Below the pieces are notes generated by a model. It did no database searches and had not been told where the DNA came from. It saw only the letters and a program-made list of their open reading frames with translations. DNA of 64,000 nt from Pseudomonas putida (GTDB taxonomy: Bacteria > Pseudomonadota > Gammaproteobacteria > Pseudomonadales > Pseudomonadaceae): positions 5,518,001 to 5,582,000 of the forward strand of contig NZ_CP066306.1 in the NCBI RefSeq assembly GCF_016406145.1, read 5' to 3'. Below are positions 6,579-23,986 of this stretch, piece after piece (the first letter of the stretch is position 1; each line of letters opens with the position of its first letter). A program made the translations under genes and the position numbers.

Positions 6579-6595
6579 GGCAAAGCTCCTTGTGC

Positions 6596-8932: not shown

Positions 8933-9007
8933 GCAAATGCTCCTTGAGGCATTGCCCTGGCGAGCATTTCCGTTGGCGGAACCGAATCGCGGCTAAGTGG
9001 GCTTATA

Positions 9008-9052
9008 TTCTTTTAAGAGATATAAATATGTTTTATTCATATTTTGAGGAAT
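9008..9052. promoter_or_regulatory. AT-rich sftP-sftR divergent promoter region with inverted repeats
   Basis: The 191-bp gap between the divergent sftP and sftR genes is strikingly AT-rich at 9001-9060. It holds TCTTTTAAGAGA (near-palindromic, one unpaired position, 9009-9020) and ATTC-N10-GAAT (9035-9052). LysR-type regulators usually bind such elements in divergent promoters; SftR or CysB are the obvious candidates. Assignment is by position only. Confidence 0.4.
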
Positions 9053-9123
9053 AAGTAACAGTCTTTATAAGGGGGCTCACCCTGTTCATCAATTGCATTC
9101 GACCGAAAGTTTTCATGTAAAAA

Positions 9124-10038
9124 ATGCATATCGACCTTCGCCAGCTCCGCCATTTCATCGCCCTTGTCGAACACCGCAGTTTCGTCGCTGCGGCGGCTGC
9201 GGTGAACCTGTCGCAATCGGCCTTCAGCCGCAGCATCCAGACCCTGGAGCACAACGTCGGCTGCCGCCTGGTCGACCGCGCCAGCAAGGAGCTTTCACCC
9301 ACCCGTCAGGGCCTGCTGGTGCTGGAGCACTCCCGCCGGCTGGTGCACGGCGCGCACAATCTGGTTAACGAAATCCACCAGTTCAATGGCGCCACTACGG
9401 GCGTAGTGTGCTTCGGCTCAGGCCCTGCCCCCGCGGGCGGGCTAGTGCCACGGGCAGTGGCGCGCTTCGTCGCTGAATACCCGGCGGCGCGTACCTGTTT
9501 TCAGGTGGATAACTGGCAGGCCCTGAACCGCAAGCTGATTGCCGAGGAGATCGAATTCTTCGTTGCCGACACCCGCCAGTTCGAGTCCGACCCGGACTAC
9601 CGCGTGCACAAGCTGACACCACAGCGCTGGCACTTCTGTTGCCGCGCCGGACACCCGCTGACCGAGCGCTACCAGGTTAATGCGCGGGATGTATTCGAGT
9701 ACCCGCTGGCGACCACTTTCCGCCCGCCGAACATCCGCAAGATCCTCACTGAACTGAGCGGCAGGCAGGACTTTCTGCCCTCAGTAGAGTGCGAGCACGG
9801 CTATGCGTTGCTCAACGTGGTGATGCACTCGGATACCATCGGCATTGCCTGCAATGCCAACTTGCGGCCTTATCAGGCGGGGCAGGGGCTGGTGGCGCTG
9901 CGGTTGGCGGACCTGGCGCCGGAGCAGGAGGAGTCTTTCTACACCCGCTATGGCGTGGTTAGCCGGGTGGGGTATGGGTTGTCGCCACTGGCGCAAGGAA
10001 TGGTCAGGCAGTTGGTGGCCTGTGATACCGAAGAGTAA
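9124..10038 (+). CDS. sftR: LysR-type transcriptional regulator SftR
   Basis: A 304-residue LysR-family regulator. The N-terminal winged helix-turn-helix is clear (LRQLRHFIALVEHRSFVAAA, then LSQSAFSRSIQTLE), followed by a substrate-binding effector domain from about residue 90. The gene sits between sftP (divergent) and atsK (convergent), the arrangement reported for SftR of P. putida S-313, where it activates sulfate-ester genes when sulfate is scarce. The start MHIDLRQ is normal for the family. The effector is not evident from sequence. Confidence 0.88.
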   Translation: MHIDLRQLRHFIALVEHRSFVAAAAAVNLSQSAFSRSIQTLEHNVGCRLVDRASKELSPTRQGLLVLEHSRRLVHGAHNLVNEIHQFNGATTGVVCFGSGPAPAGGLVPRAVARFVAEYPAARTCFQVDNWQALNRKLIAEEIEFFVADTRQFESDPDYRVHKLTPQRWHFCCRAGHPLTERYQVNARDVFEYPLATTFRPPNIRKILTELSGRQDFLPSVECEHGYALLNVVMHSDTIGIACNANLRPYQAGQGLVALRLADLAPEQEESFYTRYGVVSRVGYGLSPLAQGMVRQLVACDTEE

Positions 10039-10060
10039 AAAGTGGCCTTGCGTCGCGAAA

Positions 10061-10077
10061 GGGCCGCAACGCGGCCC
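10061..10077. terminator. Hairpin between convergent sftR and atsK
   Basis: GGGCCGC-AAC-GCGGCCC is a perfect 7-bp stem in the 47-bp gap between two convergent genes. It has no T-run, so it may act as a weak bidirectional terminator or be a degenerate REP; the adjacent TCGCGAAAGGGCCGC also occurs near 31980 in slightly altered form. Confidence 0.5.
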
Positions 10078-10085
10078 CAACACTA

Positions 10086-10991
10086 TCAGCCTTTGCGCGT
10101 AGTCCGGCTCAGTTGCCCATCAACCCCAACCGGTACCTCACCGGCCAATGTCACCCGGCGCACGATGCGCGGCTGGGTGCCGTAATCATCCACCGCATAA
10201 TGCTGCGTCGCTCGGTTGTCCCAGATCGCCACGTCCCCCGCCTCCCAGCGCCAGCGCACGGTGTTTTCCAGGCGAGCGACATGTCCTTGCAGCAGCGCGA
10301 ACAGGTGCTGCGAGTCGGCCAGCGAGTAGCCCTTTATGCGTTTGACGAAGTGCCCCAGCTGCAGCGCCCGCTCACCACTGATCGGGTGCACCCGTACCAC
10401 CGGGTGCTCGGTCTCGTACACCGTCGAGGTGAAGACTTTGCGATAACGCTCGAGTTTGGCCGGGTCGACATCCGGCTTGATGCTCGCGTAGTCATATTCG
10501 TTGCTGTGCACCGCCCAGAGTTTGTCGGCCAGTTCGCGCAACGGCTCGGGCAGTTCCTGATAGGCGGCAGCGGTATTGGCCCACACGGTATCCCCGCCAG
10601 AGGCAGGGGCGACCACGCTGCGCAGGATCGAGGCCTTGGGGTAGGCGTCGACGAAGGTCACGTCGGTGTGCCATGAGTTGGCCCGCTGGCCTTCGGCACC
10701 ATCGAGCTGGAGCAGGTAGCTGGTGCCGTCGACCACCGGCACGGTGGGGTGAGCTACCGGCTCGCCCAGCAGCTTGGCAAAACCTTCCTGGCTCAGGTCA
10801 TCCAGGTGGGCTTGGCCGCGGAAGAAGATCACCTTGTACTGCACCAAGGCAGCCTGGATGGCCGCGACCGTGGCGGCGTCGAGGTCGGCGGAGAGCTTCA
10901 CGCCACGAATTTGCGCGCCGATACGACCGGCAACGGGTTGGATATCGAGTTCGAGGGCTTGCGGCGCAGTGGCCAGTGCAGCAGTACTCAT
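10086..10991 (-). CDS. atsK: Alkylsulfatase AtsK (Fe(II)/2-oxoglutarate dioxygenase)
   Basis: A 301-residue TauD-family dioxygenase. It hydroxylates the carbon bearing the sulfate ester of alkyl sulfates, using O2 and 2-oxoglutarate, and the product collapses to an aldehyde and sulfate. With the start MSTAALATAPQ, the iron ligands fall at H108, D110 (NSWHTD) and H264 (RATQHYA), and the 2-oxoglutarate Arg at R275/R279, the same numbering as AtsK of P. putida S-313. That agreement fixes the start at 10991 rather than 11024. It follows atsR by 37 bp, so binding protein and sulfatase are probably co-expressed under sulfate starvation. Confidence 0.94.
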   Translation of the reverse strand: MSTAALATAPQALELDIQPVAGRIGAQIRGVKLSADLDAATVAAIQAALVQYKVIFFRGQAHLDDLSQEGFAKLLGEPVAHPTVPVVDGTSYLLQLDGAEGQRANSWHTDVTFVDAYPKASILRSVVAPASGGDTVWANTAAAYQELPEPLRELADKLWAVHSNEYDYASIKPDVDPAKLERYRKVFTSTVYETEHPVVRVHPISGERALQLGHFVKRIKGYSLADSQHLFALLQGHVARLENTVRWRWEAGDVAIWDNRATQHYAVDDYGTQPRIVRRVTLAGEVPVGVDGQLSRTTRKG

Positions 10992-11028
10992 GGTTGTGGT
11001 CCTCACGGTCATTGTTGGGGTCAAGGGT

Positions 11029-12072
11029 TCAGCGGGCGGCTTGTACGGCTTGTTCCTGTTGCAACGCGGTATCGAGAAAGCGCGGCTCGACCCAGTCAGC
11101 TACTTGGAAGCTGCGGCGGATAAGGCGCTCCTGTGCAGCAAGGTCCACGCCTTGTTGCAACTGGGCGAGGAAGGCCGCATCCAGGCGCGGGTCGAAGTAG
11201 TGGGCAAGGTCTTCCTTGGCCAGGTCGTCACTGAGGATGCTGCGCGGCCAGCTTGCATTGCTTGCCACCAGGTCGACGAAGGCATCGCGGTTGTGTTCGT
11301 CGCGCAGCCAGCGGGTCGCTTGCTGCTGGGCGTTGACCAGCCGCTGTACCAGCTCGGGGTATTTGCGGATGAACTCGCCGGTACCCAGCAATACCGCCTG
11401 GGTACTACCAGCGCCTTCCAGGTCTCGAGAGTTGACCGGTAGTTCGACCAGGCCGCGCTCACGCAACGAAAGCAGGCTGGCAAGGCCCCAGGTGGCGTCG
11501 ATCTGCTTGGCGGCGAGCGCGGCGTTAGCTGCATTGAAATCCAGGTTGATCACTTTCAAATCGCGCTCAGACAGCCCTTGGCTAGCGAGGGCGCTGGCAA
11601 ACGACAGCTGGTTGGCAGTGCCGCGGAACACCGCGACGCGCTTGCCTTTGAGGTCGTGCAAGGTCTTGATGCCCGACCCCGGCACGACGCCCAGATAGCT
11701 TTTCACCCCGCGCACACCGGCAGACAGCACGCGGGTGTCGAGGCCATTGGCCTTGCCGACGATCGCTGCCAGGTCGCCCAGGTAGGCGAAGTCTGCCTGC
11801 CCGTTGGCCAGTGCCTCATTGACCACCGGCCCAGCGCCCTTGAAGAAGCGCCAGTCGATACGAATACCGTCCTTGGCAAATTCCTTTTCCAGCAGCTGCT
11901 GGTCACGCAGCACATCAACGACACCGCCGGCACTGTGCTTGCTGCCAGCGCTCAGGTCGGGCACGGCTATACGGATGCTCTCGGGCTTGGCCGAATCGGC
12001 CGCCTGGGCGCTGAAGGCGGACAAAACGAGTAGCCCGAAGGCGGGGATCAGGTGGCGCAGCGGGGTTTTCAT
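11029..12072 (-). CDS. atsR: Sulfate-ester ABC transporter substrate-binding protein AtsR
   Basis: A 347-residue periplasmic binding protein of the SsuA/TauA type. The signal peptide is residues 1-24 (FSAQA/AD). The mature protein has the expected motifs IRIAVPDLSAG, VVNEALANGQADFAYLGDLA and the domain-hinge LKGKRVAVFRGT. It would deliver alkyl sulfate esters to AtsBC. It is divergent from atsB across a 298-bp AT-rich region and is followed by atsK. Assignment to sulfate esters rests on the flanking genes. Confidence 0.88.
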   Translation of the reverse strand: MKTPLRHLIPAFGLLVLSAFSAQAADSAKPESIRIAVPDLSAGSKHSAGGVVDVLRDQQLLEKEFAKDGIRIDWRFFKGAGPVVNEALANGQADFAYLGDLAAIVGKANGLDTRVLSAGVRGVKSYLGVVPGSGIKTLHDLKGKRVAVFRGTANQLSFASALASQGLSERDLKVINLDFNAANAALAAKQIDATWGLASLLSLRERGLVELPVNSRDLEGAGSTQAVLLGTGEFIRKYPELVQRLVNAQQQATRWLRDEHNRDAFVDLVASNASWPRSILSDDLAKEDLAHYFDPRLDAAFLAQLQQGVDLAAQERLIRRSFQVADWVEPRFLDTALQQEQAVQAAR

Positions 12073-12121
12073 GGCAAGGCTCCTTGGCAGGCTGCCACCG
12101 GCGATGGCCGGCGCTTTGGCC

Positions 12122-12180
12122 AGAAGCTAGGCAGGTCTGGTTAGAAGCTACAAATATCAAAACTTCATTTTTTAGTAGCT
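12122..12180. promoter_or_regulatory. Direct and inverted repeats in the atsR-atsB divergent promoter region
   Basis: The word AGAAGCTA occurs at 12122-12129 and again at 12143-12150, exactly 21 bp apart, that is two helical turns. An inverted copy, GTAGCT, lies at 12175-12180. This pattern in the AT-rich gap between divergent atsR and atsB suggests a multimeric activator site (SftR or CysB). Further along, CACATATGTG at 12309-12318 is a perfect 10-bp palindrome. No ORF in this 298-bp gap is convincing. Confidence 0.4.
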
Positions 12181-12370
12181 GAAAGGCATAAACCAAGCAG
12201 CACGCGGCTCGGCGGACAGCTTGCGGAAAACGCATGGAAAATATGACGAAAACGCAATGACGTGAGGCTTCCGTATGCAGGGTGCGCATGCTCTTATCTC
12301 TTGAAGTCCACATATGTGAATTTTTAATTCCATAAGTGCATAACCTAAAAACGCTTCGTAGAGATGGCCG

Positions 12371-13957
12371 ATGAATGGAATTCTGAGCAAGCGAGCGTGG
12401 GTACGGCTGGGGCCGCTACGCGGCCCTTCCACGGCCCAAGGCCGCTCCCGCATACTTGCGGTGTTGTTGCCTATTCTGATCGCGCTGTTGTGGGTGGCGG
12501 CGAGCCAACAGCACTGGATGAGTGAGCAGATACTGCCGGCGCCCTCGCTGGTCTGGCAGAGTGCCGTTGAGTTTGGCTCCGGTGAACTCTGGGGGCACTT
12601 GTGGATAAGTCTGCAGCGGCTGTGGTGGGGATTGCTGGTAGGTATTGCCAGCGGCTTGCTGCTTGGGGCGTGGCTCGGGACTTCGCGCAATGCGCAGACG
12701 CTAGTGCTGCCTACCTTCGTCGCGCTGGCACAGATCCCCACCTTGGCATGGATCCCATTGTTCATGCTGTTTTTCGGCATCGGGGAACTGCTCAAACTGG
12801 TCGTACTGGTGAAAGCCGTGGTGGTGCCGGTCACCCTGCATACGCTGGTCGGCGTACGCGATACCCAACCCAAGTTGCGTGAAGCCGCTGCAGCGTTGCG
12901 CCTGCCGCCTCATCTGCTGATACTCCGCCTGCTGTTGCCCGCCGCCCTGCCCGCTTTCCTGACTGGCGTGCGACTTGCCCTGGCTACCGGCTGGACCTCC
13001 TTGTTGGCCGTGGAGTTGCTGGCCTCCAGCGAAGGCATCGGTTATTTGATGGTGTGGGGCAGGCAACTGTTCATGCTCGACCTGGTGCTGCTGTGCATCC
13101 TGATGATCGGACTGGTCGGCGGGCTCATGGACCGAGGTTTTTCGACGCTGGAGAAGCGCCTGCTGTACTGGCCACAACCGGCCACGGGCGAACACCAGCG
13201 CGGCCCACTGCCCACAGGCTGGCTGAGCCTGTTGCTGCCCGTGGCCCTGCTGATGCTCTGGCAGGCCAGCAGCAGCTTCGGCTGGATCGATCAAAACATT
13301 CTGACTTCGCCCTTGGATGTCGTGCGTACGCTGTTCGCAGGCCTGGCCGATGGCTCACTGCCTGAAGCCATGCTGCTGAGCCTGCAGCGCACCTTGACCG
13401 GCTTGGTGCTTGGCGGCGGTGCGGGCTTGCTGTCGGGGCTGCTGCTGGGGCTTTCACACAACGCCGAGCGGCTGTTCGGGCCAAGCCTTTCGGCACTGCG
13501 CCAGGTAGCGTTGTTCGCCTGGGTGCCGCTGCTGACGGCCTGGTTCGGCCTGGGTGAGGGCGCCAAGAATGTGTTTGTCGGCCTGGCAGCATTCTTTCCA
13601 CTGCTGATCGCTACGCAGCGCGGTACCGCCAGCCTCTCGCCACAACTGGGCGAAGCTGGCCGCACGCTGCGCCTGAACCAGTGGCAACGCCTGCGCCTAC
13701 TGGTGCTGCCCGGCGCTGCTCCGGCCATCTTTGCCGGGCTGCGTCTGTCGCTGATCTATGCCTGGCTAGGCACCATCGGCGCTGAATATTTCATGCCTTC
13801 GGACGGCGGCATCGCCAGCCTGATGATCGGCGCACAACAGTTGTTCCGCATGGACCAGGTCATGGCCGCCATGCTTCTGATCGGCCTGGTCGGCGCCCTG
13901 CTGGGCAACCTTGGACAACGCCTCGAAATGCGCGCCACGCGCTGGAGAACCGCATGA
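12371..13957 (+). CDS. atsB: Fused double-domain ABC permease AtsB
   Basis: A 528-residue inner-membrane permease with two SsuC/TauC-type transport domains in tandem. Each half has about six membrane segments and its own ATPase-coupling EAA-type loop: REAAAALRLPPHLLILRLLLP in the first half (about residue 180) and GEAGRTLRLNQWQRLRLLVLP in the second (about residue 435). Most NitT/TauT permeases are single-domain proteins working as dimers, so this is a natural fusion, also reported for AtsB of P. putida S-313. Its stop overlaps the atsC start by 4 bp (ATGA), pointing to translational coupling. Confidence 0.9.
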   Translation: MNGILSKRAWVRLGPLRGPSTAQGRSRILAVLLPILIALLWVAASQQHWMSEQILPAPSLVWQSAVEFGSGELWGHLWISLQRLWWGLLVGIASGLLLGAWLGTSRNAQTLVLPTFVALAQIPTLAWIPLFMLFFGIGELLKLVVLVKAVVVPVTLHTLVGVRDTQPKLREAAAALRLPPHLLILRLLLPAALPAFLTGVRLALATGWTSLLAVELLASSEGIGYLMVWGRQLFMLDLVLLCILMIGLVGGLMDRGFSTLEKRLLYWPQPATGEHQRGPLPTGWLSLLLPVALLMLWQASSSFGWIDQNILTSPLDVVRTLFAGLADGSLPEAMLLSLQRTLTGLVLGGGAGLLSGLLLGLSHNAERLFGPSLSALRQVALFAWVPLLTAWFGLGEGAKNVFVGLAAFFPLLIATQRGTASLSPQLGEAGRTLRLNQWQRLRLLVLPGAAPAIFAGLRLSLIYAWLGTIGAEYFMPSDGGIASLMIGAQQLFRMDQVMAAMLLIGLVGALLGNLGQRLEMRATRWRTA

Positions 13958-14817
13958 ACGCTTTCAACACCTCACAGCTGCTTGCGGCCAACCAACCTGA
14001 TACCACGCCAGCGCTGGTGAGCTTCGAAGGAGTGGGCAAGGTTTTCACCGTCGATGGTCATTCCTTGGAAGCCATCCGCAATTTCAATCTGTCGATCAAC
14101 GAGGGCGAATTCATCGCCATCGTCGGCGCCTCCGGGTGCGGCAAGTCCACCCTGCTGCGCCTGCTGGTCGGGCTGGACACTGACTACAGCGGCAGCATTC
14201 GTGTCGATGGCCAACCTGTGAGCGGCATCGGTGGCGAACGCGGCATCGTATTCCAGGAGCATCGATTGTTCCCTTGGCTGACGGTTGAGCAGAACATCGC
14301 CCTGGGGCTGGTGAATGAGCAGCTGACTCAGGGCGAGCGTGCCCGTCGCGTGCATGAGTTCGTGCTGTTGGTAGGCCTGGTCGGCTTCGAGTCCGCTTAC
14401 CCGCATCAGCTTTCCGGTGGCATGGCCCAGCGCGTGGCGATCGCCCGAGGTCTGGTGGCCAGCCCTCGCATCCTGCTGCTGGATGAGCCGTTCGGTGCGC
14501 TCGATGCGCTGACCCGCCAGCAGCTGCAGGATGAGCTGCTGGGCATCCGCGAACGTGCCGGCATCACCACGTTGCTGGTCACTCACGACGCCGAGGAGGC
14601 AACTTACCTGGCGGACCGGGTCGTGGTACTGGAGCCGCGCCCTGGGCGGATCAAGTCGGTGGTCGACATTGATCTGCCGCACCCGCGGCTGCGCACAGGC
14701 GTGGCGCTGCATGGGCTGCGTGAGCAGGTGCTGCACCAGATCACCGGTGATGGCGGTTACCTGCCGCCGCCAACGCGACGGGTGGAGGGGTTGCGGCCGG
14801 AGCTGATTGCGCTCTGA
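13954..14817 (+). CDS. atsC: Sulfate-ester ABC transporter ATPase AtsC
   Basis: A 287-residue ABC ATPase powering AtsB. Walker A is GASGCGKST, the Q-loop is GIVFQEHRLFPW, the signature LSGGMAQRVAIARGL, Walker B ILLLDEPFGALD and the switch His lies in LLVTHDAEEA. It overlaps atsB by four bases. The length and C-terminal tail are typical of SsuB/TauB-type ATPases. It converges on the neighbouring eight-gene operon with only 5 bp between stop codons and no obvious terminator. Confidence 0.92.
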   Translation: MNAFNTSQLLAANQPDTTPALVSFEGVGKVFTVDGHSLEAIRNFNLSINEGEFIAIVGASGCGKSTLLRLLVGLDTDYSGSIRVDGQPVSGIGGERGIVFQEHRLFPWLTVEQNIALGLVNEQLTQGERARRVHEFVLLVGLVGFESAYPHQLSGGMAQRVAIARGLVASPRILLLDEPFGALDALTRQQLQDELLGIRERAGITTLLVTHDAEEATYLADRVVVLEPRPGRIKSVVDIDLPHPRLRTGVALHGLREQVLHQITGDGGYLPPPTRRVEGLRPELIAL

Positions 14818-14822
14818 CTGAA

Positions 14823-15122
14823 TCAGGCGGTAGCTGTAGAGCGGTGTTTACCCAGATCGTACAAGTACGCCCAAGGATAGATCCCCCGCTCATGACCATC
14901 GCTGAATACCAGTTGCACGCCATACCCTTGTGCTTCGATCCGCTCGATGCGGACATCGGCGGCAACCACTGCAATGCCTCCCAGCAACCGCGCCGCGCGG
15001 CATTGCGAGCAGGGGCATGCACCGCGCAAGCGCGCATGGCTGATGCTGTGCTCGCCATCCTCCCATTCCAGCAGCAACTGTCCGACCCCGCGCAGGTTGC
15101 TGATTGCCCCCGGCGCGTTCAT
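14823..15122 (-). CDS. DUF971 (gamma-butyrobetaine-hydroxylase-like N-terminal) protein
   Basis: A 99-residue stand-alone DUF971 domain. The family's zinc-site residues are all present: C36, C38, C41 (CPCSQC, pattern C-x-C-x2-C) and H77 (FSDGHERGIYPW). In gamma-butyrobetaine hydroxylase this domain binds zinc, and elsewhere it accompanies iron-sulfur carrier proteins; its biochemical role alone is unknown. The start overlaps the HEAT-gene stop as TGATG. It is the last gene of the operon running from the GntR regulator at 22050. A structural or metal-handling role for the flavoprotein-ferredoxin pair is a guess. Confidence 0.85.
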   Translation of the reverse strand: MNAPGAISNLRGVGQLLLEWEDGEHSISHARLRGACPCSQCRAARLLGGIAVVAADVRIERIEAQGYGVQLVFSDGHERGIYPWAYLYDLGKHRSTATA

Positions 15123-16087
15123 CACGCCACCCCGCGCAATTGCGCCAAGGCAATGCGCACCGCCTTGCGCACCTCCGGGTCGCTATCGGCCTCGGCGGCC
15201 TGCAGCAATGGCAAGGCACGCGCCTGGCCCAGCTCGCCGAGGGCCAAGGCCGCCTCCTTGCGAAGGTTGGCGATGCCGTGCCCGAGCAGATCGCCAAGGG
15301 CATCCAGTGCAGCGGCATAGCGCAGGCGTCCCAGTGAACGCGCCGCACGCAGGCGTACCTGCCAGAAACCGTCGGCAAGTGCATCCACCAGCGCCGGCCC
15401 AGCCTCAGCCTGGCCTACCTTGCCCAGGGTGGTCGCAGCTTCTTCACGCACTTGCCAGACCGCATCGTTCAACGCTGCCACCAGCGCAGGCAGCACGGAG
15501 CTGCCACGCGCAAGCCCTAGCGCACCAATAGCTGCGCGACGCACTTGCGCGTCCGGCTCACCCTCGGCCAGCCTTGCCAGTGCCGGCACCGCGGGCTCGT
15601 GTTTGAGCCAACCAAGGATGCCCACCGCCTCACGTCGCACGGCCGCATCGTCATCCGCCAGCGCGAGCAGCGCAGGCGCTGCGGCATCTTCCAGGCGCAG
15701 TTCGCGCAGGGCACGCAGGGCGCTGGTGCGAACAAAGGCCGCTGCGTGGCTGACCCAAGGCAGGATCAGTTGCCCGGCTTCCAGGCTCTTGAGTTCACTG
15801 AGGCTCTGCGCTGCGGCCAGGCGCACCGGCTCGGCAGGATCGGCCAACGCAGCGCATAGGGCCTGTACCACCTCTGGCTCTTCCCACGCTTCGAGCAGCC
15901 GCGCGGCTTCAGTGCGCACCTCATCGGCCGCATCGACCAACAGCGCATCGGTGAGCCAAGGCAAACCGTCCGGGTCTTCCAGGTCGGCCAGCTCGATCAG
16001 CGCGATGCGCCGCACACCTGCGTCGACGTCTTCAAGGCGAGACAGCAGAGCAATGATGGCCGGGTTGTCGATGTTGCGTTCAGTCAT
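15122..16087 (-). CDS. HEAT-repeat protein of the AprA-like operon
   Basis: A 321-residue protein built almost wholly of PBS-lyase/HEAT-type helical repeats, roughly nine or ten units of about 31 residues. The recurring pattern is (V/A)R-x-x-A-(A/I)-x-x-L-G, for example EVRTEAARLL, QVRRAAIGALG, QVREEAATTLG, QVRLRAARSLG and NLRKEAALALG. There is no signal peptide or membrane segment. Such proteins often act as scaffolds or chaperones, and some handle cofactors. It overlaps the ATPase gene by 4 bp and the DUF971 gene by one base, so it belongs tightly to this operon. Confidence 0.85.
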   Translation of the reverse strand: MTERNIDNPAIIALLSRLEDVDAGVRRIALIELADLEDPDGLPWLTDALLVDAADEVRTEAARLLEAWEEPEVVQALCAALADPAEPVRLAAAQSLSELKSLEAGQLILPWVSHAAAFVRTSALRALRELRLEDAAAPALLALADDDAAVRREAVGILGWLKHEPAVPALARLAEGEPDAQVRRAAIGALGLARGSSVLPALVAALNDAVWQVREEAATTLGKVGQAEAGPALVDALADGFWQVRLRAARSLGRLRYAAALDALGDLLGHGIANLRKEAALALGELGQARALPLLQAAEADSDPEVRKAVRIALAQLRGVA

Positions 16088-16941
16088 AGCGCGATCCGTA
16101 GTGGAGGGTGGTCGGTGTCCGGCAGGCCCAACGGGGTCAGCCGCGGCAGTTCGCGACCTTCTTCGTGGCGCAGCAAGGCCAGGCAGTGACGTTTGAGATG
16201 GGTGAATTGCGGGCTGGTCAACAAGCCGGCGCGGCGTGGCCGCAGAAAGTCCAGCTGCAGGTCCTCGATGAAACGCCCCGGGCGCGGGCTCATCACCAGG
16301 ATGCGATCGGCCAGGAACAGGGCTTCATCGATGTCATGGGTGACGAACACCACAGTAGTGCGAATACGCGCCCAGATATCCAGCAACAGTTCCTGCATGC
16401 GTGAGCGGGTTTGCGCATCAAGGGCGCCGAAAGGTTCGTCCATGAGTAACAGGCGGGGACGATTGATCAGCACCCGGGCGATTTCGGCGCGCTGTTGCAT
16501 GCCACCGGACAGCTGGCTGGGCCAGCGCCCGGCAAAGTCGGCCAGGCCCACCAGTTGCAGCATCTCGCGCGCCTGACGCTGGCGCTCGGCCTTGCCCAGG
16601 CCTTGCATCTTCAGGCCGAACGCGACGTTGTCGAGCACACTGCGCCAAGGCAGTAGGGTGTGGTGCTGAAACACCATGCCGCGCTGCGGCGACGGCCCAT
16701 TGATGACCTGATCGTCCACGCTCAGTACGCCATCGCTGGGGGCCAGGTGCCCGGCAAGTGCTCCGAGCAACGTGGACTTGCCACAACCGGAAGGCCCGAG
16801 GATGCACACGAACTCACCGGGCGCGACGGCGAAGTCCAGGCGCTGCACTGCCTCGAACGCCTCAGCACCTTGGCCCATACGGATGGACAGGCCGCGCCCT
16901 TCGATGCGCCCAGGCGCCAGGGCCTGTTGACAACGGCTCAT
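16084..16941 (-). CDS. NitT/TauT-type ABC transporter ATPase
   Basis: A 285-residue ABC ATPase. Walker A is GPSGCGKST, signature LSGGMQQRAEIARVL, Walker B LLLMDEPFGALD and switch His FVTHDIDEA. The start MSRCQQ is preferred because its ATG overlaps the permease stop as TGATG; the longer frame to 16968 would run into the permease. It should energise the permease encoded just upstream. The imported compound is not determined by the ATPase. Confidence 0.9.
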   Translation of the reverse strand: MSRCQQALAPGRIEGRGLSIRMGQGAEAFEAVQRLDFAVAPGEFVCILGPSGCGKSTLLGALAGHLAPSDGVLSVDDQVINGPSPQRGMVFQHHTLLPWRSVLDNVAFGLKMQGLGKAERQRQAREMLQLVGLADFAGRWPSQLSGGMQQRAEIARVLINRPRLLLMDEPFGALDAQTRSRMQELLLDIWARIRTTVVFVTHDIDEALFLADRILVMSPRPGRFIEDLQLDFLRPRRAGLLTSPQFTHLKRHCLALLRHEEGRELPRLTPLGLPDTDHPPLRIAL

Positions 16942-17723
16942 CAGGCGGCCCTCCGCGTGCGATACCAAGGGGTGGCCAGTGCGCCGAGCTGCTTGACCAG
17001 AGCACTGCTACCCATGCCCAGCACGCCGATCAGTAACATGCCGACGATGATGTCCGGGTAGTTCTGCAAGGTGTACGACTCCCAGGTGTAATAGCCGATG
17101 CCGAACTGCCCTGAGATCATCTCGGCAGTGACCAAGCAGAACCACGAGGTTCCCATGCCGATGGCCAGCCCAGTGACGATACTGGGCAGCGCACCAGGCA
17201 GTACCACCTCACGCAGGATCGCCCAGCGCCCGGCGCCTAAGCTACGCGCGGAGGCCACCAGGCGCGGGTCGACCGCCTCGACGCCATGCACGGTGTTGAG
17301 CAGGATGGGGAACAGCGCGCCGGTAAAGGTGATGAAGACCATCGACAGCTCCGAAGAAGGGAACATCAGGATCGCCAACGGTATCCAGGCCACCGCCGGG
17401 ATCGGCCGCAGTACCTCAAGGGGCGGCAACAGCGTGTCTTCGGCCCATTGCGACCGTCCGATCAGCAGCCCCAGCGCCACCCCCAGCAGCGCCGCGACGC
17501 TATAGCCGGCAAATACCCGCGACAGGCTGCTGCCCAGGTGCGCCAGCACGGCACTGGACGTGAGCAATTGCCAGGCGGCATCCAGCACCGCCCTGGGTGT
17601 GGGCACATAGGTGAAGCTGAACAGCCCGAGGTCGAGCTTTGCGCTGGCTGCCACCTGCCAGAACGACAGGCAGGCAAGCAGCGAAGCGAGGCGCAGCGGC
17701 CAACGTTTGAGATCGCGGGTCAT
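16941..17723 (-). CDS. NitT/TauT-type ABC transporter permease
   Basis: A 260-residue inner-membrane permease of the SsuC/TauC/NrtB type with about six membrane segments. The coupling loop is VASARSLGAGRWAILREVVLP (about residues 160-180). Two ATGs lie close together; the one at 17723 is chosen because GGGAGG is 7 nt upstream of it but only one base from the ATG at 17729. It sits 15 bp after the binding-protein gene and overlaps the ATPase gene. Confidence 0.9.
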   Translation of the reverse strand: MTRDLKRWPLRLASLLACLSFWQVAASAKLDLGLFSFTYVPTPRAVLDAAWQLLTSSAVLAHLGSSLSRVFAGYSVAALLGVALGLLIGRSQWAEDTLLPPLEVLRPIPAVAWIPLAILMFPSSELSMVFITFTGALFPILLNTVHGVEAVDPRLVASARSLGAGRWAILREVVLPGALPSIVTGLAIGMGTSWFCLVTAEMISGQFGIGYYTWESYTLQNYPDIIVGMLLIGVLGMGSSALVKQLGALATPWYRTRRAA

Positions 17724-17738
17724 TACCATGCCTCCCGG

Positions 17739-19145
17739 TCAGCGCTGGGCAACCAGCTTCTGGTTGGCGCTGACGAAGTCCAGCACTTCTGCGCCATGAG
17801 CCTTGGCGTACTGCTCGGCCTGATCCTTGAGCAGGAAGGCGGCCAACTCACCCTTGGTGTTGCGCACGAACCAGGCCTGGTTAGCCAGCAGCTTGATGCC
17901 GCTGTCGGCGGCCTGGGCGTAGATGGCGCGGATGTCCTTGCCTTCCTGCTCAAGCTGGGCAAGGGCACCAAGGGCGGCCTCAGGCGAGGCATAGTGGCGA
18001 ACCTTGTCTTCCCCCCGCACCCAGATCTGCGCCAAGCGGCTGAAATCGGTAATCGGTTTGCCGGTCAGCGCATCTGCAGCCTTGAGCGGCAGCGGGTCGT
18101 AGTTTTGCAGCGCCTTGTCGTAATCCACACCCGCCTGCGTGAAGGCGGCGCGGATGTACTGATCATCGATGAACTGGCGGGTATCGAGCTCCCGATCGGT
18201 CCTCTTCAGCAGCTTGAGGGTGTCGATGGAGGTGGCGACTGCTTTGCGGTACTCGGGCTTCCAGGTCAGATCGCGGGTTTGCAGGCCCAGCGGCCCATGG
18301 AACAGGTAATTGACCTCGGCTTCAATCCCGGTGACCTTCTCGATCAGCTCACTGTACTTCTCGGGCTCGGTGGCAATCAGGCGGTCGGCCTCAAGGCTCG
18401 CACGCAGGTAGGCGGTGACGACCTCGGGATATTGGCGGGCGTATTGGGCATCGACCAAGGCACCATGGAAGGTCGGCGCATTGGCCTGGGCACCGTCGTA
18501 GATCTTGCGGGCGAAACCACGGTTGGGGAACAGTTCGGCGAACGGCACGAAGTCGGCGTGGGCTTCGATGCGGTTGCTGCGCAAGGCCGAGCCTGCGATC
18601 TCCGGGGCCTGGGCGATGATTCGCACGTCTTTGTGCGGGTCCCAGCCCTGGGCCGCAATGGCGCGCAACAGCATACCGTGGGCCGTGGAGGCAAACGGCA
18701 CGGAAATGGTCTTGCCCTTGAGTTCGCTAAGCGATTGCACGGCGGAGGCCGCCGGCACGACGATGCCGTTGCCGCTGCCGTGCACACTACCCGACAGCAC
18801 ACTGATGAACAGGCTGCGTTTACCTGCATCCAGGTGAGCGACGCCATTGAACGAGCCAGGGAAGTCGGCCATGGCGCCGAAGTCGAGCTTGCCGGCGACC
18901 ATTTCGTTGGTCAGTGGCGCTCCGCTGGTGAAGTTCTTCCACTCGACCTGATACTGGGCATCCTTGTACCTGCCGTCATGCGGCAGGTACTTCTCCAGCA
19001 GGCCAAGTTCGCGAATCAGCAAGCCGCCGGTGGCGCAGTTGATGGTGGTGTCCTGGGTACCGATGGCGATACGGATGGTTTCGGCACTGGCGTTAAGGCC
19101 AGTGAGTGCCAGCGCAAGGCCGGCCAAGTTTGCTACAAGGCGCAT
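17739..19145 (-). CDS. Long ABC transporter substrate-binding protein (NrtA/SsuA-like)
   Basis: A 468-residue periplasmic binding protein with a signal peptide of about 22 residues (LTGLNASA/E). Family motifs include IRIAIGTQDTTINCATGG, KLDFGAMADFPGSFNG and SELKGKTISVPFASTAHGMLL. SsuA and TauA proteins are about 320-350 residues, so this one carries an extra C-terminal section of over 100 residues, closer to NrtA/CmpA length. It is separated from the ferredoxin gene by a 119-bp gap able to form a hairpin. The ligand is probably a small oxyanion or sulfonate-like anion; this is inferred from family and neighbours. Confidence 0.85.
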   Translation of the reverse strand: MRLVANLAGLALALTGLNASAETIRIAIGTQDTTINCATGGLLIRELGLLEKYLPHDGRYKDAQYQVEWKNFTSGAPLTNEMVAGKLDFGAMADFPGSFNGVAHLDAGKRSLFISVLSGSVHGSGNGIVVPAASAVQSLSELKGKTISVPFASTAHGMLLRAIAAQGWDPHKDVRIIAQAPEIAGSALRSNRIEAHADFVPFAELFPNRGFARKIYDGAQANAPTFHGALVDAQYARQYPEVVTAYLRASLEADRLIATEPEKYSELIEKVTGIEAEVNYLFHGPLGLQTRDLTWKPEYRKAVATSIDTLKLLKRTDRELDTRQFIDDQYIRAAFTQAGVDYDKALQNYDPLPLKAADALTGKPITDFSRLAQIWVRGEDKVRHYASPEAALGALAQLEQEGKDIRAIYAQAADSGIKLLANQAWFVRNTKGELAAFLLKDQAEQYAKAHGAEVLDFVSANQKLVAQR

Positions 19146-19153
19146 GGGTGCTT

Positions 19154-19220
19154 CCCCTCGAATCGTTTGAAGTATTGGAATCGTCTCCGCCACCAGGCTT
19201 GGGTGGTGGGAAACGAGGGG
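19154..19220 (-). promoter_or_regulatory. Structured leader between ferredoxin and binding-protein genes
   Basis: CCCCTCG (19154-19160) can pair with CGAGGGG (19214-19220), closing around an inner hairpin CCACC/GGTGG (19190-19206). The structure lies directly before the binding-protein start in the operon's longest internal gap. It could stabilise the downstream mRNA or adjust the ratio of transporter to enzyme, as seen in other ABC operons. This is inference from base pairing only. Confidence 0.35.
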
Positions 19221-19264
19221 CATTGCAGAGGGCGTCCGGTGGCTCGCCGGATGGCCTGGGAGGG

Positions 19265-19510
19265 TCAGCGCAGCAGGTAAGGGATGTCGACCTTCACTGC
19301 ACCAGTAGGGCAATCTTTTTCGCAGGGCATGCAGTACCAGCACTCATCAAAGGCCATGTAGGCCTTCTGGGTGGCCGGGTTGATGGCCAACAGGTCCATT
19401 GGGCAGACCTCAACGCACACGGTGCAGCCTTTTTCAGCGATGCATTTGTCTTCGTCGATGGTCACCGGGGCGCTGCTGCGAAAGAAAATCTCTTGGGGTT
19501 GGTAGGCCAT
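19265..19510 (-). CDS. 2[4Fe-4S] ferredoxin-like protein (AprB-like)
   Basis: An 81-residue iron-sulfur protein. Eight cysteines fall in two clusters: C23, C29, C32, C36 (x5, x2, x3 then Pro) and C57, C60, C63, C67 (x2, x2, x3 then Pro). This layout, with an enlarged first spacing, resembles the ferredoxin core of the AprB subunit of adenylylsulfate reductase. The start MAYQPQE is preceded by GAGGAA. It follows the AprA-like flavoprotein gene by 69 bp and very likely carries electrons to or from its FAD. Confidence 0.9.
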   Translation of the reverse strand: MAYQPQEIFFRSSAPVTIDEDKCIAEKGCTVCVEVCPMDLLAINPATQKAYMAFDECWYCMPCEKDCPTGAVKVDIPYLLR

Positions 19511-19579
19511 TTCACGGTTTCCTCGGGGCCTTTGGCCCTCGTTGTCGTTCATTGCCGGGGCCGCTGTGCGCCACCCCAC

Positions 19580-21304
19580 TCACGCGGCATCGGCCTTGAC
19601 CCGTAGCCGGTCGTAGGCAGTCTGTTCCTCGGCATCCAAGGCAATGAGGTAGGGTTCGACGGCTTTCTTGAAACTGGTCATTTCACCGTCCTCGCCCTTC
19701 TTCAGGTGGCAATGACAAAACCACTGGCCATCGTTGCGCTCGGGATAATCGACACGATGGTGGTAAAGACCCCAGCGGCTTTCTTTGCGGAACAGCGAAG
19801 CGCGGGCGGCCATTTCGGCGCAGTCGCGGATCACCGATACTTCCATCGCACGCATCAGCTCATGTGGGTTGTTGGCCTTGATCTGCTCAAGGTCACGCGC
19901 GATCTCAGCAAAGCGCGCCAGGCCGATTTCCATTTTCCTGGTCACCTTGGGGGGCTGCAGGTAGTCGTTGACCATGCGCCGCAGCTTGTATTCGACTTGC
20001 GCTGGCGGCTGGCCATGCTCGCGGTGCAACGGCGCGAACACGCGCTCACGTTCGCGCTCTACCTGGGCCACATCGACCTCGGCCAGCTCGCGCCCGGCCA
20101 CGTACTGCGCGGCGTTGACGCCAGCAAACCAGCCATAGGTGAACGCACCGAGCATGTAGTTGTGCGGCACCGCAGCCATGTCGCCCGCGGCGTACAGGCC
20201 CCTGACGCTGGTCTCGGCCTTCTCGTTGACCCACACACCCGAGGCCGAATGCCCGGAGCAGAAACCGATCTCGGAGATATGCATCTCGACCATGTGCTGG
20301 CGGTAGTCGGTACCGCGCCCGGCATGGAACTGGCCACGGCTGGGGCGCTCGTTGCTGTGCAGGATATGTTCGATGTTCTGGATGGTCTCCTCTGCCAGGT
20401 GATCAAGTTTAAGGAACACCGGACCATTGCCGCCTTCGAGCTCCTGATGGAACTCCCACATCATCTGCCCGCTCCAGTAATCGCACTCGATGAAACGCTC
20501 GCCTTTGCTATTAGCGGTATAACCACCCAGTGGGCCCGTCACGTAGGCGCAAGCCGGGCCGTTGTAGTCCTTGATCAACGGGTTTATCTGGAAGCACTCA
20601 AGGTTGGCCAGTTCGGCGCCTGCGTGATAGGCCATGGCGTACCCGTCACCCGCGTTGGTGGGGTTCTCATAGGTACCCATCAAATACCCCGAAGACGGCA
20701 GGCCCAGGCGCCCGGCAGCACCGCAGGCAAGGATCACCGCCTTGGCACGCACCACGCGAAACTCGCCACTGCGGCAGTCGAACCCGAGTACTCCGGCCGC
20801 CGCACCATCACTGTCGAGCAACACACGGGTGCAAACCATGCGATTGCTGATCTCGATACGGGCCCGCTTGAGCTGGCGGTAGAGCACCTTCTTGATGTCG
20901 TGGCCTTCGGGCATGGGCAACACGTAGGCGCCCATGTGATGGACCTTCTTTACCGCGTAGTCGCCGGTCTCGTCCTTCTCGAACTTCACACCCCAGCGGT
21001 CGAGCTGTTCAATGGTTGCAAAGCTGTGGGTGGCATAGGCATGTACGGTGGCCTGGTTGACGATACCGTCATTGGCAACGGTAATTTCCTTGGTGTACTG
21101 CTCGGGTGTAGCGTGCCCAGGGATGATCGCGTTGTTCAGGCCATCCATGCCCATGCTGATGGCGCCACTGCGCTTGACGTTGGCCTTGTCCAGCAGCAAC
21201 ACGCGCAGACTTTTGTCCTGCTCCTTGGCTTTGATAGCGGCCATCGGGCCAGCAGTGCCGCCGCCGATGACGATGATGTCGTAGTCCTGGGTCTCGATGC
21301 TCAT
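19580..21304 (-). CDS. AprA-like FAD-dependent oxidoreductase (fumarate reductase/succinate dehydrogenase flavoprotein family)
   Basis: A 574-residue flavoprotein. The dinucleotide-binding motif is IIVIGGGTAGPMAAIKA (G14-G19), the FAD-contact motif near the C-terminal half is GLYAAGDMAAVPHN, and KRSGAISMGMDGLNN corresponds to the RSGA segment of AprA. The pairing with a small ferredoxin is also AprBA-like. Canonical assimilatory pseudomonads use CysH, not AprBA, so the substrate is probably something else, perhaps the compound imported by the adjacent ABC transporter. It overlaps the GntR gene by 4 bp (ATGA). Direction of electron flow and substrate cannot be read from sequence. Confidence 0.85.
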   Translation of the reverse strand: MSIETQDYDIIVIGGGTAGPMAAIKAKEQDKSLRVLLLDKANVKRSGAISMGMDGLNNAIIPGHATPEQYTKEITVANDGIVNQATVHAYATHSFATIEQLDRWGVKFEKDETGDYAVKKVHHMGAYVLPMPEGHDIKKVLYRQLKRARIEISNRMVCTRVLLDSDGAAAGVLGFDCRSGEFRVVRAKAVILACGAAGRLGLPSSGYLMGTYENPTNAGDGYAMAYHAGAELANLECFQINPLIKDYNGPACAYVTGPLGGYTANSKGERFIECDYWSGQMMWEFHQELEGGNGPVFLKLDHLAEETIQNIEHILHSNERPSRGQFHAGRGTDYRQHMVEMHISEIGFCSGHSASGVWVNEKAETSVRGLYAAGDMAAVPHNYMLGAFTYGWFAGVNAAQYVAGRELAEVDVAQVERERERVFAPLHREHGQPPAQVEYKLRRMVNDYLQPPKVTRKMEIGLARFAEIARDLEQIKANNPHELMRAMEVSVIRDCAEMAARASLFRKESRWGLYHHRVDYPERNDGQWFCHCHLKKGEDGEMTSFKKAVEPYLIALDAEEQTAYDRLRVKADAA

Positions 21305-22050
21305 GCCTTGCCCCCTTTCTGGCGGTCGATGCGCAGGCGGTACTGGAAGGCATCGCCGCGGTAGTAGAGGTGTTCGAAGTCCAGCGGTGTGCCATCAGCG
21401 GCATGGGTGAGGCGCTCGATGCGCATGATCGGCGCCCCCTCTTCCACTTCCAGTGCCTGGGTCAGGTCGCTGTCGGCCAAGACCGCATCGATGGCCAGGT
21501 CAGCGTGACCAAGCGCGATGCCGCAGTCGTTTTCCAGCAGCAAGAAAATGTCGCGGGTAACCAAGTCGGCTTTTTCCAGTTTTTCCCCCACAGCCTTTGG
21601 CAACCAGGTCAGCTCCAGTGATACCGGCTCACGGTTGATCAGGCGCACCCGCCGAATCTCAGTCACAAGGCTGCCCTCCTCGACCTGCAGGCGCGCCGCC
21701 ACCAACGCATTGGCTGGCACATGGCGGAAGCTGCGCAGCCGGTTCAGCACTTCGTAGCCCATCTGCGTCATAGATTCAGCCAAACCTTGCAGGGTGCTCA
21801 CGTTCTGGAACGCCTTGGGCTTGGCGACGAAAGTGCCTTTGCCGTGAATCTTGAAGATCAGGCCCTCCTTCTGCAGATCGCCCAAGGCCTGACGCACAGT
21901 GATGCGGCTGACGTCGAACGACTTGCCCAGTTCGCTTTCTGAGGGCATGCGGCTGTGGGGGGCGTAGGTGCCGTCGAGTATGCGCTCGCGCAGCAATTCC
22001 TTGAGCTGGGTGTAGAGCGGTACCGGTGAAAGTGGGAGCAGTTCGGCCAT
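21301..22050 (-). CDS. GntR/HutC-family (UTRA) transcriptional regulator
   Basis: A 249-residue regulator. Residues about 8-75 are a GntR winged helix (SESELGKSFDVSRITVRQAL, then GKGTFVAKP) and about 95-240 an UTRA effector-binding domain (VTEIRRVRLINREPVSLE, MRIERLTHAADGTPLDFEH). The start MAELLPLSPVPLY gives the usual length; the open frame to 22410 has no such support. It is the first gene of the operon and overlaps the flavoprotein gene, so it probably represses its own operon until a pathway ligand binds. The palindrome 22 bp upstream of its start is the likely operator. Confidence 0.92.
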   Translation of the reverse strand: MAELLPLSPVPLYTQLKELLRERILDGTYAPHSRMPSESELGKSFDVSRITVRQALGDLQKEGLIFKIHGKGTFVAKPKAFQNVSTLQGLAESMTQMGYEVLNRLRSFRHVPANALVAARLQVEEGSLVTEIRRVRLINREPVSLELTWLPKAVGEKLEKADLVTRDIFLLLENDCGIALGHADLAIDAVLADSDLTQALEVEEGAPIMRIERLTHAADGTPLDFEHLYYRGDAFQYRLRIDRQKGGKA

Positions 22051-22071
22051 GGTTCTCTTCGCTGATTGGGC

Positions 22072-22087
22072 ACTTGTTATAACAAGT
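22072..22087. promoter_or_regulatory. Perfect 16-bp palindrome, probable GntR operator
   Basis: ACTTGTTATAACAAGT is a perfect palindrome 22 bp upstream of the GntR start. HutC-subfamily operators have the form TTGT-x-TA-x-ACAA, and this site fits with TTGTTATAACAA. The position across the promoter suggests repression of the whole eight-gene operon. The remaining part of the 250-bp divergent gap holds no other feature I can support. Confidence 0.75.
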
Positions 22088-22300
22088 TGTGACCAGAGAA
22101 TAGCGGGCATAAGAATTGACCGTGAAATACTGTTATTGCATATGCATATAGAGGTTTGCGGTTGCCCTGCGGGCCCTTCACGCGCAACCCACGCAAGGGG
22201 AATCACCCATCCGGCAAAATTCCGAAATCCTTTATCGGCCCGGGGGTGTCGGGCCCGGCTAGCCTTGATCAGGACCTCATCACTTGGCACGGACGCCACC

Positions 22301-23986
22301 ATGCACAACCCCGACGATCGATCCCTCGACCTCAAGCGCGTGCTGGACACGTTGCAAGCCGACCAGCGCCTGAGCGCCAACGACGCTAGGCAAGTACTCG
22401 AATACGCCAACTCACAGCCACCTCGCCATCCGCTCGAAACCGTAGCGGCCCTGGGCCTCGAAGACCGCCAGCACCCCGGCCAGCGCCTGCATCTGGACTG
22501 CCTGTGCCAATGGCTCGCCAGAAAAGTCGGGCAGCCTTACCAGCGTATCGACCCACTGCAACTCGACCTGTCTCAGGTCAACGGGCTGATATCGCCAGCA
22601 TTCGCCCATCGCCACGGCATACTCATCCTGGCCAGCGACAGCCTGGGCATCACCGTGGCCAGTGCGCAGCCTTACCAGTGTGACTGGCAAACCGATCTGG
22701 CCCGCAGCCTGGGCAAGCCGATCCGCCGCGTGCTCGCCAGCCCCCTGCAGTTGCGCCAGGTGGGCCAGTCGTTGTCTCGCCTCGCCCACTCGGTGCAAGG
22801 CGCCCAGCATCAGCAGTCGGCAAGCCTGGGTGAGCTGGAGCAGTGGCTGGAGCAGGACAAGCGCCAGGGCAACGCCACGGCAGACGACGCGCATATCGTG
22901 CACATCGTCGACTGGCTGCTGCAGTACGCTGTCGAACAGCGCGCCAGTGACATCCATCTTGAGCCGCGCAGCGAGCAGGGCCGATTGCGTTATCGCATAG
23001 ACGGCCTCCTGCATACGGTCTACGCCTTCCCGGCCAGCGTGACCCTGGCCGTCGTCAGCCGCCTGAAGCACTTGGGCCACATGGATGTCGCGGAGAAACG
23101 CCGGCCGCAGGATGGCCGCATGAAGTGCAGCCTGCCAGGTGGCCGCGAAGTGGAATTGCGCCTGTCTACCCTGCCCACCCCCTTTGGCGAAAAGCTGGTA
23201 CTGCGGTTGTTCGACCCACAACAGCTACAGGAAGACTTCGACCGCCTGGGCCTGGAAGGTGAACAACTGCAGCAGTGGCAGGCCCTGCTGCAGCGCCGTC
23301 ATGGCATGCTGCTGGTCACCGGCCCTACCGGTTCAGGCAAGACCAGCACGCTTTACGCAAGCCTGAAGCGGCTGGCCACACCCGAGGTCAACTTGTGCAC
23401 CATCGAAGACCCGATCGAACGCCTGGAGCCGGCGTTCAATCAATTACAGGTGCAGCCGACACTGGACCTCAGCTTCGCCAACGGTGTACGCGCGCTGCTG
23501 CGCCAAGACCCTGACATCATCATGATCGGCGAGATCCGCGATCGCGAGACGGCTCTGGTAGCCGTGCAAGCTGCCCTTACCGGACACCTGGTGCTCTCGA
23601 CCCTGCACACCAACGACAGCTGTGGGGCCATTACCCGCCTGCTGGAACTGGGCGTGCCCGATTACCTGATCAAGGCCTCCCTGAGTGGGGTGATGGCACA
23701 GCGCCTGGTACGCGTGCTGTGCCGTGAGTGCCAGGGCTGCGCAGCATCGGCCAGCGGCCAGCCTTGCCTGATGTGCCGGGGCACCGGCTTTGATGGTCGA
23801 ACGGGCGTGTTCGAGCTACTGGTCCCGAGCGAAAGCCTGCGCGCCCGGATAGGCGCCGGAGCGGACCTTGCCAGCTTGCGGCGACAGGCATTGAGCGAAG
23901 GGTTGCTGGACCTGAAACGCTGCGGGGAGGCAAAAGTGGCCCGTGGACTGACCTGCCAAGAGGAAGTGCTGCGGGTCTGCACATGA
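22301..23986 (+). CDS. Orphan type II/IV secretion ATPase (GspE/PilB family)
   Basis: A 561-residue secretion ATPase. The N-terminal 170 residues are a divergent GspE-N-like region. The C-terminal motor has Walker A GPTGSGKTST, Asp box CTIEDPIE, Walker B PDIIMIGEIRDRETA and His box TGHLVLSTLHTND. A four-cysteine zinc-ribbon follows (CRECQGC and CLMC, then GRTGVFELL). The start MHNPDDRSLDLK is where similarity begins; no good ribosome-binding site is visible. No pilin, platform protein or secretin gene is nearby, so partners must be elsewhere or the gene is a stand-alone remnant. Confidence 0.85.
   Translation: MHNPDDRSLDLKRVLDTLQADQRLSANDARQVLEYANSQPPRHPLETVAALGLEDRQHPGQRLHLDCLCQWLARKVGQPYQRIDPLQLDLSQVNGLISPAFAHRHGILILASDSLGITVASAQPYQCDWQTDLARSLGKPIRRVLASPLQLRQVGQSLSRLAHSVQGAQHQQSASLGELEQWLEQDKRQGNATADDAHIVHIVDWLLQYAVEQRASDIHLEPRSEQGRLRYRIDGLLHTVYAFPASVTLAVVSRLKHLGHMDVAEKRRPQDGRMKCSLPGGREVELRLSTLPTPFGEKLVLRLFDPQQLQEDFDRLGLEGEQLQQWQALLQRRHGMLLVTGPTGSGKTSTLYASLKRLATPEVNLCTIEDPIERLEPAFNQLQVQPTLDLSFANGVRALLRQDPDIIMIGEIRDRETALVAVQAALTGHLVLSTLHTNDSCGAITRLLELGVPDYLIKASLSGVMAQRLVRVLCRECQGCAASASGQPCLMCRGTGFDGRTGVFELLVPSESLRARIGAGADLASLRRQALSEGLLDLKRCGEAKVARGLTCQEEVLRVCT

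Follow-up and report, generated by a model that had tools for sequence, protein, structure and literature searches.

What is the function of an eight-gene operon that joins an AprA-like flavoprotein and a ferredoxin to an ATP-binding cassette (ABC) importer, a HEAT-repeat protein and a DUF971 protein? We addressed this question in a 64,000-nt stretch of Pseudomonas putida (NZ_CP066306.1, assembly GCF_016406145.1, positions 5,518,001-5,582,000; hereafter the window, with positions counted from its start), in which the set lies on the minus strand at 14823-22050 in the order GntR regulator, flavoprotein, ferredoxin, substrate-binding protein (SBP), permease, ATPase, HEAT and DUF971. We assign a probability of about 45% to the reading that the operon imports a small, non-amine sulfonate-type anion from which a ferredoxin-fed flavoenzyme reductively releases sulfite. 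A first-pass annotation of this DNA had listed these families in this order, and we confirm all eight genes, but of the five overlapping junctions it described the refined starts leave four of seven (GntR/flavoprotein, permease/ATPase, ATPase/HEAT and HEAT/DUF971). The other three are gaps of 69, 119 and 9 nt (flavoprotein/ferredoxin, ferredoxin/SBP and SBP/permease). That annotation overlooked a NosL-like domain on the SBP, electron-input modules in relatives, a candidate operator and the dispensability of the importer. It knew of no published function for the set, and our text searches of the literature likewise found none; the available text of papers on chromate, per- and polyfluoroalkyl substances, Rhodococcus and root exudates leaves the gene set unmentioned.

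The operon is real, strongly conserved and mobile. Among 80 Pseudomonas loci (the best 80 of 587 confirmed stretches, one of them titled Paucimonas), 70 are complete and collinear, with all eight genes in one order and on one strand, which argues against a chance arrangement and bears out the earlier claim that the operon is conserved as a unit. Four loci are cut by contig ends, and six (L025, L030, L032, L033, L034 and L036) keep GntR-flavoprotein-ferredoxin-HEAT-DUF971 without the importer. The best genome-wide SBP match in those six genomes was 26-27% identical (57.7-63.1 bits), against 94% in a control genome. Because these loci lack the importer and their genomes lack its SBP, the importer appears to be accessory and the enzyme genes the core. 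Beyond Pseudomonas we compared 37 in-group loci, 14 from genomes and 23 from plasmids, leaving out the Ilyobacter outgroup (L129). Flavoprotein and ferredoxin are present in all 37; HEAT was detected by BLAST in 36 and is fused to the flavoprotein in two actinobacterial loci, the fusion in L127, where BLAST missed HEAT, being based on a length of 893 amino acids and the near-identical P0241. DUF971 is found in 22 of the 37 and an Mrp/NBP35 protein in 4 more, all cyanobacterial, with neither seen in 11. An SBP of the operon type (at least 31% identity) occurs in 33; it is absent from L112, L118 and L119, and L126 has a different SBP instead. The core is flavoprotein, ferredoxin and HEAT, and DUF971 is common.

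The flavoprotein family is patchily distributed: in the phylum, 15 of 299 sampled genomes pass its cut-off, as do 5 of 369 sampled from the class and 4 of 289 from a second class (the three genome draws overlap). In plasmid records, 53 of 56 flavoprotein matches are at least 60% identical, a few of them fragments, and these carriers comprise Burkholderiales, Acinetobacter, Acidithiobacillus caldus, rhizobia, Methylobacterium, Methylocystis, cyanobacteria and one actinobacterium; the other three matches are a second actinobacterium at 58.8% and the distant Natribaculum and Ilyobacter. Some copies show possible signs of decay: a Mesorhizobium flavoprotein is in three pieces, A. caldus plasmids carry about a quarter of the flavoprotein, and the annotation of Mesorhizobium sp. 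AR07 splits HEAT into two genes (L143:10945-11902).

We then asked whether the flavoprotein could be a reductase of adenosine 5'-phosphosulfate (APS) or its 3'-phospho derivative (PAPS). It passes the curated cut-off of NF006131 (1138.3 bits over residues 2-573, cut-off 587 bits), and a PDB sequence search places the PAPS reductase alpha subunit 8a8o_A (5.3e-66) and AprA closest to it among solved structures. The earlier comparison with AprBA (PDB 1jnr/2fja) thus stands as kinship: both pair a flavin adenine dinucleotide (FAD) alpha subunit of one superfamily with a two-[4Fe-4S], eight-cysteine ferredoxin, and Asn57 corresponds to the Asn found at AprA position 74. It does not extend to identity. 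The flavoprotein misses the AprA model TIGR02061 (188.8 vs 641.75 bits) and the ferredoxin the AprB model TIGR02060 (34.3 vs 135.65 bits), and the window set has HEAT, DUF971 and an importer in addition. AprA R265 (A. fulgidus numbering), which we take to be the substrate arginine, aligns with Leu243. An alignment of 48 family sequences, from the window and 47 further loci (10 in Pseudomonas), has Leu here in at least 97%; the residue is Arg in PAPS reductase and in the 27%-identical Ilyobacter outgroup. Identity in this alignment reaches at least 97% at 210 of 574 positions, suggesting one substrate throughout the family. The predicted structure of the flavoprotein is poor (pLDDT 51). A succinate dehydrogenase or fumarate reductase was also rejected, at 162.7 bits against the TIGR01812 cut-off of 567.3.

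Genome context points the same way. A CysH-type match (TIGR02055, E 1e-30) coexists with the flavoprotein in 14 of 20 carrier genomes and scores above the curated cut-off in nine, among them the genome of the window. Neither sat, cysD, cysN or cysC nor other sulfate-activation genes were found in the window cluster, unlike the Ilyobacter cluster, where cysC, cysD and a gene for a GTP-binding protein surround the flavoprotein; that context should fit a true APS or PAPS reductase. A sulfonate importer, moreover, would be needless for such an enzyme. A variant assimilatory APS or PAPS reductase would account for PAPS reductase being the closest solved relative, and for 5 of 16 carrier genomes without a PF01507 match (E 1e-8), of which four are gammaproteobacteria (one with 88% completeness) and the fifth is a genome of 74% completeness; neither CysH nor CysD was thus found in these five. 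With the missed cut-offs, the Leu in place of Arg, CysH in the genome and no cys genes in the cluster, we consider that alternative very improbable, and the flavoprotein is probably not an APS/PAPS reductase; such a role is unlikely even in the carriers without PF01507. Four of the carriers with no such match are G321, G380, G525 and G533.

To elucidate how the enzyme might be supplied with electrons, we searched the 14 genome loci for electron-input genes, using queries for ferredoxin-NADP reductase (FNR) and FdxA from plasmid locus L121. As controls we chose 40 windows manually, at round coordinates, on contigs from 12 of these genomes (all but G380 and G761). FNR lies nearby in 6 of the 14 loci against 1 of 40 control windows (Fisher p=7e-4) and FdxA in 8 of 14 against 1 of 40 (p=2e-5), although the loci are not all independent, as three belong to one genus and the single FNR control match (L153) sits in G143, one of the six positives. 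An RNF operon directly follows FdxA in two of the 14, both gammaproteobacterial (L136:13397-18510 and L137:13308-18434); NCBIfam cut-offs were passed for RnfA, C, E and G in L137 and for RnfD and E in L136, and the other Rnf genes tested match by tblastn. A large protein related to the NADPH-glutamate synthase beta subunit and sulfide dehydrogenase (PRK06567, below cut-off) is encoded in L134 and on an A. caldus plasmid. Altogether 9 of the 14 genome loci have some electron-input module. By contrast, plasmid loci rarely do (FNR 1 of 23, FdxA 2 of 23 and the large NADPH-oxidoreductase-like protein 1 of 23), and the window cluster itself has none. The recurrence of FNR, RNF and FdxA genes beside the flavoprotein in relatives suggests that the enzyme is probably a ferredoxin-fed reductase, and we infer that it uses up reduced ferredoxin, which in most hosts would come from elsewhere. 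The redox chemistry proposed earlier is supported. Electrons could instead flow from the imported substrate, or from sulfite, to ferredoxin and NAD(P)+: flavoenzymes of the AprA superfamily and FNR are reversible, and sulfur oxidisers use AprBA oxidatively. However, RNF and FNR in aerobes are the normal suppliers of reduced ferredoxin, and the importer and the sulfur-scavenging neighbours would fit reduction better, so an oxidative enzyme seems improbable.

We next considered what the importer might carry. The first-pass annotation placed it in the sulfonate/nitrate type, and the structural comparisons agree: the SBP has the SsuA/TauA fold, and its top eight Foldseek matches are SsuA/TauA, with sulfonate binders tied with nitrate/bicarbonate binders by VIA-align. 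It appears to retain part of the ligand contacts of the TauABC and SsuABC binding proteins. In TauA the sulfonate contacts given in the available text of PMC6906117 are Gln30, Gly61, Gly79 and Thr132, with Asp205 contacting the amine. We counted these positions in three overlapping sets of 9, 30 and 26 sequences. The Gln30 equivalent is an invariant Gln (9/9, 30/30 and 26/26), a tentative equivalence, as this position lies outside the printed alignment. The Gly61 equivalent, G74, is kept in 9/9, 28/30 and 26/26, whereas the Gly79 position (92) is A/G, the Thr132 position (153) is T/A/S and the Asp205 position is an invariant His. Taurine was rejected as the ligand on the changed Glu106 and Asp205 positions. 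Also unlike the Tau and Ssu proteins, the SBP falls below curated cut-offs (TIGR01728, SsuA_fam, 106.4 vs 163.5 bits; TIGR01729, 72.5 vs 304.25 bits) and is 467 amino acids long, with a C-terminal domain that has the NosL fold. PF05573 (gathering score 24 bits) gives this domain 20.6 bits as a fragment and 17.0 bits in the full-length protein; of eight orthologues, L124 (24.1), L125 (29.2) and L120 (28.1) pass, four fall below 24 and L127 has no match. Unlike the copper chaperone NosL (7og7), the domain is fused to an SBP, and its Pfam match begins at profile position 20-26. A PDB sequence search with the NosL-like part alone gave no match.

The neighbourhood of the operon is consistent with an organosulfur substrate, the direction that the first-pass annotation had favoured and that the SBP fold and some of the ligand-contact positions also support. 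Next to the operon, and convergent with it, are TauD, SsuA-like and ABC genes, followed by genes for an arylsulfotransferase and a TonB receptor; the whole block (4902-14817) also includes a LysR regulator and a 528-amino-acid fused double permease. TauD-like genes flank 11 of the 80 Pseudomonas loci, though not always arranged alike, and are also seen at one plasmid locus of Sinorhizobium. Exporters of the YeiH or TauE type recur in part of the carriers, which would agree with sulfite as the product. In 4 of 20 carrier genomes a YeiH gene (PF03601) is no more than 8 kb away from the flavoprotein, as the sole copy in three, all of one genus, and YeiH also accompanies 3 of 23 plasmid loci (p=0.06 by the tblastn test alone); the YeiH-type gene in L125 is labelled a putative sulfate exporter. 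TauE/TSUP genes accompany 6 of 22 annotated plasmid stretches, once at a distance of 6.6 kb, and cyanobacterial plasmids have YeiH and TauE just downstream; in the 20 carrier genomes no TauE/TSUP gene (PF01925) was found near the flavoprotein. Sulfur neighbours are thus frequent yet far from universal. One source labels the actinobacterial fusion P0321 'Putative reductase (alkanesulfonate metabolism)', a label rather than a test.

It is possible that the enzyme is instead a ferredoxin-fed reductase of a small anion without sulfur, acting on a C=C bond, a nitro group, an N-oxide or another group, with an importer tuned to that anion and sulfur neighbours that are incidental. Other members of the importer superfamily bind nitrate, bicarbonate or pyrimidines, the first two tied in fold score, and the flavoprotein belongs to the fumarate-reductase superfamily and has lost the AprA substrate Arg. 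Many neighbourhoods have no recognised sulfur gene, and some have amidase (three loci), GNAT or ammonium-transport genes. However, sulfonate binders lead the Foldseek ranking, and YeiH/TauE and TauD-type neighbours recur in unrelated phyla. On balance we find a non-sulfur substrate unlikely.

The remaining subunits fit an enzyme complex. As noted previously, the ferredoxin has eight cysteines, arranged in two 4Fe-4S patterns. HEAT had been proposed as an assembly or cofactor-handling factor. The NF010374 model matches flavoprotein and HEAT alike, and all 120 HEAT-flavoprotein fusions listed of the 6481 found are 887-911 amino acids long and match FAD and HEAT models, the named ones being actinobacterial; because of this fusion, HEAT is more likely to be an enzyme subunit. 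The DUF971 protein of the window has the CxCxxC motif and the DGH histidine, as the first reading of the sequence stated, but among 15 aligned orthologues CxCxxC is kept in 12 and lost in three while the His is kept in all, suggesting that the family can do without the zinc site. In cyanobacteria the Mrp/NBP35 protein follows HEAT at the usual place of DUF971. This replacement suggests a role for DUF971 in Fe-S delivery or assembly, in keeping with the assembly function first ascribed to it.

These data suggest that the operon encodes a variant of the AprA-type ferredoxin flavoenzymes with a probable role in reductive sulfite release from an imported sulfonate. The importer, with its NosL-tailed SBP, would bring in a small sulfonate-type anion without an amine. 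Electrons from NAD(P)H would pass through FNR, RNF or a similar module and ferredoxin(s) to the 2x[4Fe-4S] subunit and on to the FAD of the cytoplasmic catalytic protein, with HEAT as a structural subunit and DUF971 or Mrp/NBP35 helping to load Fe-S clusters. The reduced flavin might attack the sulfonyl sulfur, or otherwise cleave the S-R bond, in a two-electron reduction from which sulfite would leave, to be assimilated or, in some hosts, exported. The flavin step is borrowed on the strength of the superfamily relation to AprA and PAPS reductase: for the PAPS reductase of Methanothermococcus thermolithotrophicus (8a8o), the available text of PMC10322725 proposes attack by FAD N5 and release of sulfite. 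That enzyme shares the GH histidine (His352 here) and has sulfite as its product, but keeps the Arg; its genes co-occur with sulfate-activation genes, and the same text mentions no importer or HEAT with it.

Among desulfonation routes for taurine and isethionate, the available text of PMC11423573 lists oxygenative enzymes (TauD and SsuED), Xsc, a lyase (IslAB) and the nitrogenase-like Isr system. The isethionate reductase IsrBHDK with SsuCAB resembles our proposal in its Ssu-type import followed by sulfite release from a sulfonate, proposed there to be reductive; unlike the flavoprotein system, it comprises nitrogenase-like catalytic proteins and a radical SAM protein, and was studied anaerobically (PMC11423573, same text). 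We tentatively extend the proposal to an oxygen-independent class of flavin sulfonate reductases (FAD protein, ferredoxin and HEAT, often with DUF971 or Mrp), fed by FNR or RNF and cleaving imported organosulfonates to sulfite in otherwise aerobic bacteria, which plasmids would have spread through Pseudomonadota, cyanobacteria and actinobacteria and in which the NosL-tailed SBP would be a new importer architecture. If so, a ferredoxin-driven flavin route, its enzyme being about 60% identical across phyla and present on plasmids, would add to the organic sulfur cycle a widespread and as yet unassigned step. Proteins that bear no more than the label 'fumarate reductase/succinate dehydrogenase flavoprotein subunit' would thereby gain a function, and stand-alone DUF971 proteins and the HEAT-flavoprotein fusion a possible functional context.

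Control of the operon appears to be local. Upstream of gntR lies a perfect palindrome, ACTTGTTATAACAAGT, whose outer edge coincides with the end point, 22087, that the first-pass annotation gave the operon. It yields two strand matches against 0.06 expected (1 of 100 shuffles reached two) and is the sole exact site in the source genome. Its consensus, ACTYGTTATRACAAGT, adjoins gntR in all 80 Pseudomonas loci, exactly in 74 and with one mismatch in six, and occurs in 0 of 77 control regions 3 kb away. Elsewhere, variants precede gntR in four of seven regions inspected (two Paraburkholderia, Aquabacterium and Acinetobacter) and were not found in A. caldus, Cupriavidus or Tsukamurella. GntR is 77-98% identical in all 80 Pseudomonas loci and has a match in 15 of the 37 others, two of them weak (29-31%; L111 and L144). 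GntR would control the operon from this predicted operator, and gntR is probably a local regulator. A wide regulon was rejected, as the rest of the genome offers a single additional site, which has two mismatches, and a reversed-pattern control gave five strand matches. A promoter scan found zero promoter-like sites, and terminator-like sites were no commoner than in shuffles. The coordinates are collected in Table 1.

Table 1. Features of the eight-gene operon and its surroundings, in window positions.
Feature	Position	Strand	Basis or remark
GntR/UTRA (HutC-type) regulator	21301-22050	minus	profile matches; start refined
FAD flavoprotein, AprA/PAPS-reductase superfamily	19580-21304	minus	NF006131 (PRK08275); best PDB match 8a8o_A
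8-Cys 2x[4Fe-4S] ferredoxin subunit	19265-19510	minus	profile matches; Cys alignment
SBP	17739-19145	minus	SsuA/TauA-like lobes; C-terminal NosL-like domain
ABC importer permease	16941-17729	minus	profile matches
ABC importer ATPase (taurine/nitrate/sulfonate type)	16084-16941	minus	profile matches; ATG start
HEAT-repeat protein	15122-16087	minus	Pfam HEAT_2, 5.7e-60
DUF971/GBBH-like_N protein (PF06155)	14823-15122 (ATG start) or 14823-15125 (GTG start)	minus	Pfam, 6.6e-21
Palindromic operator candidate ACTTGTTATAACAAGT	22072-22087		upstream of gntR
Adjacent convergent sulfur-scavenging genes	10086-14817		TauD family, SsuA-like SBP, fused double permease, ATPase; context, outside the unit

Three minor observations concern the surroundings and relatives of the operon. 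A divergent open reading frame for a PilB/GspE-type ATPase (22049-23986) formally overlaps the 5' end of gntR, and its real start is probably further in than drawn. The ferredoxin of this operon is presumably the one known in strain KT2440 as PP_0206. In KT2440, PP_0206, listed as 'ferredoxin', rises 7.5-8.5-fold under zinc according to the available text of PMC6066579. On two Rhizobium plasmids (L130 and L144), thiC-thiO-thiS and a gene for a thiazole synthase closely precede the cluster.

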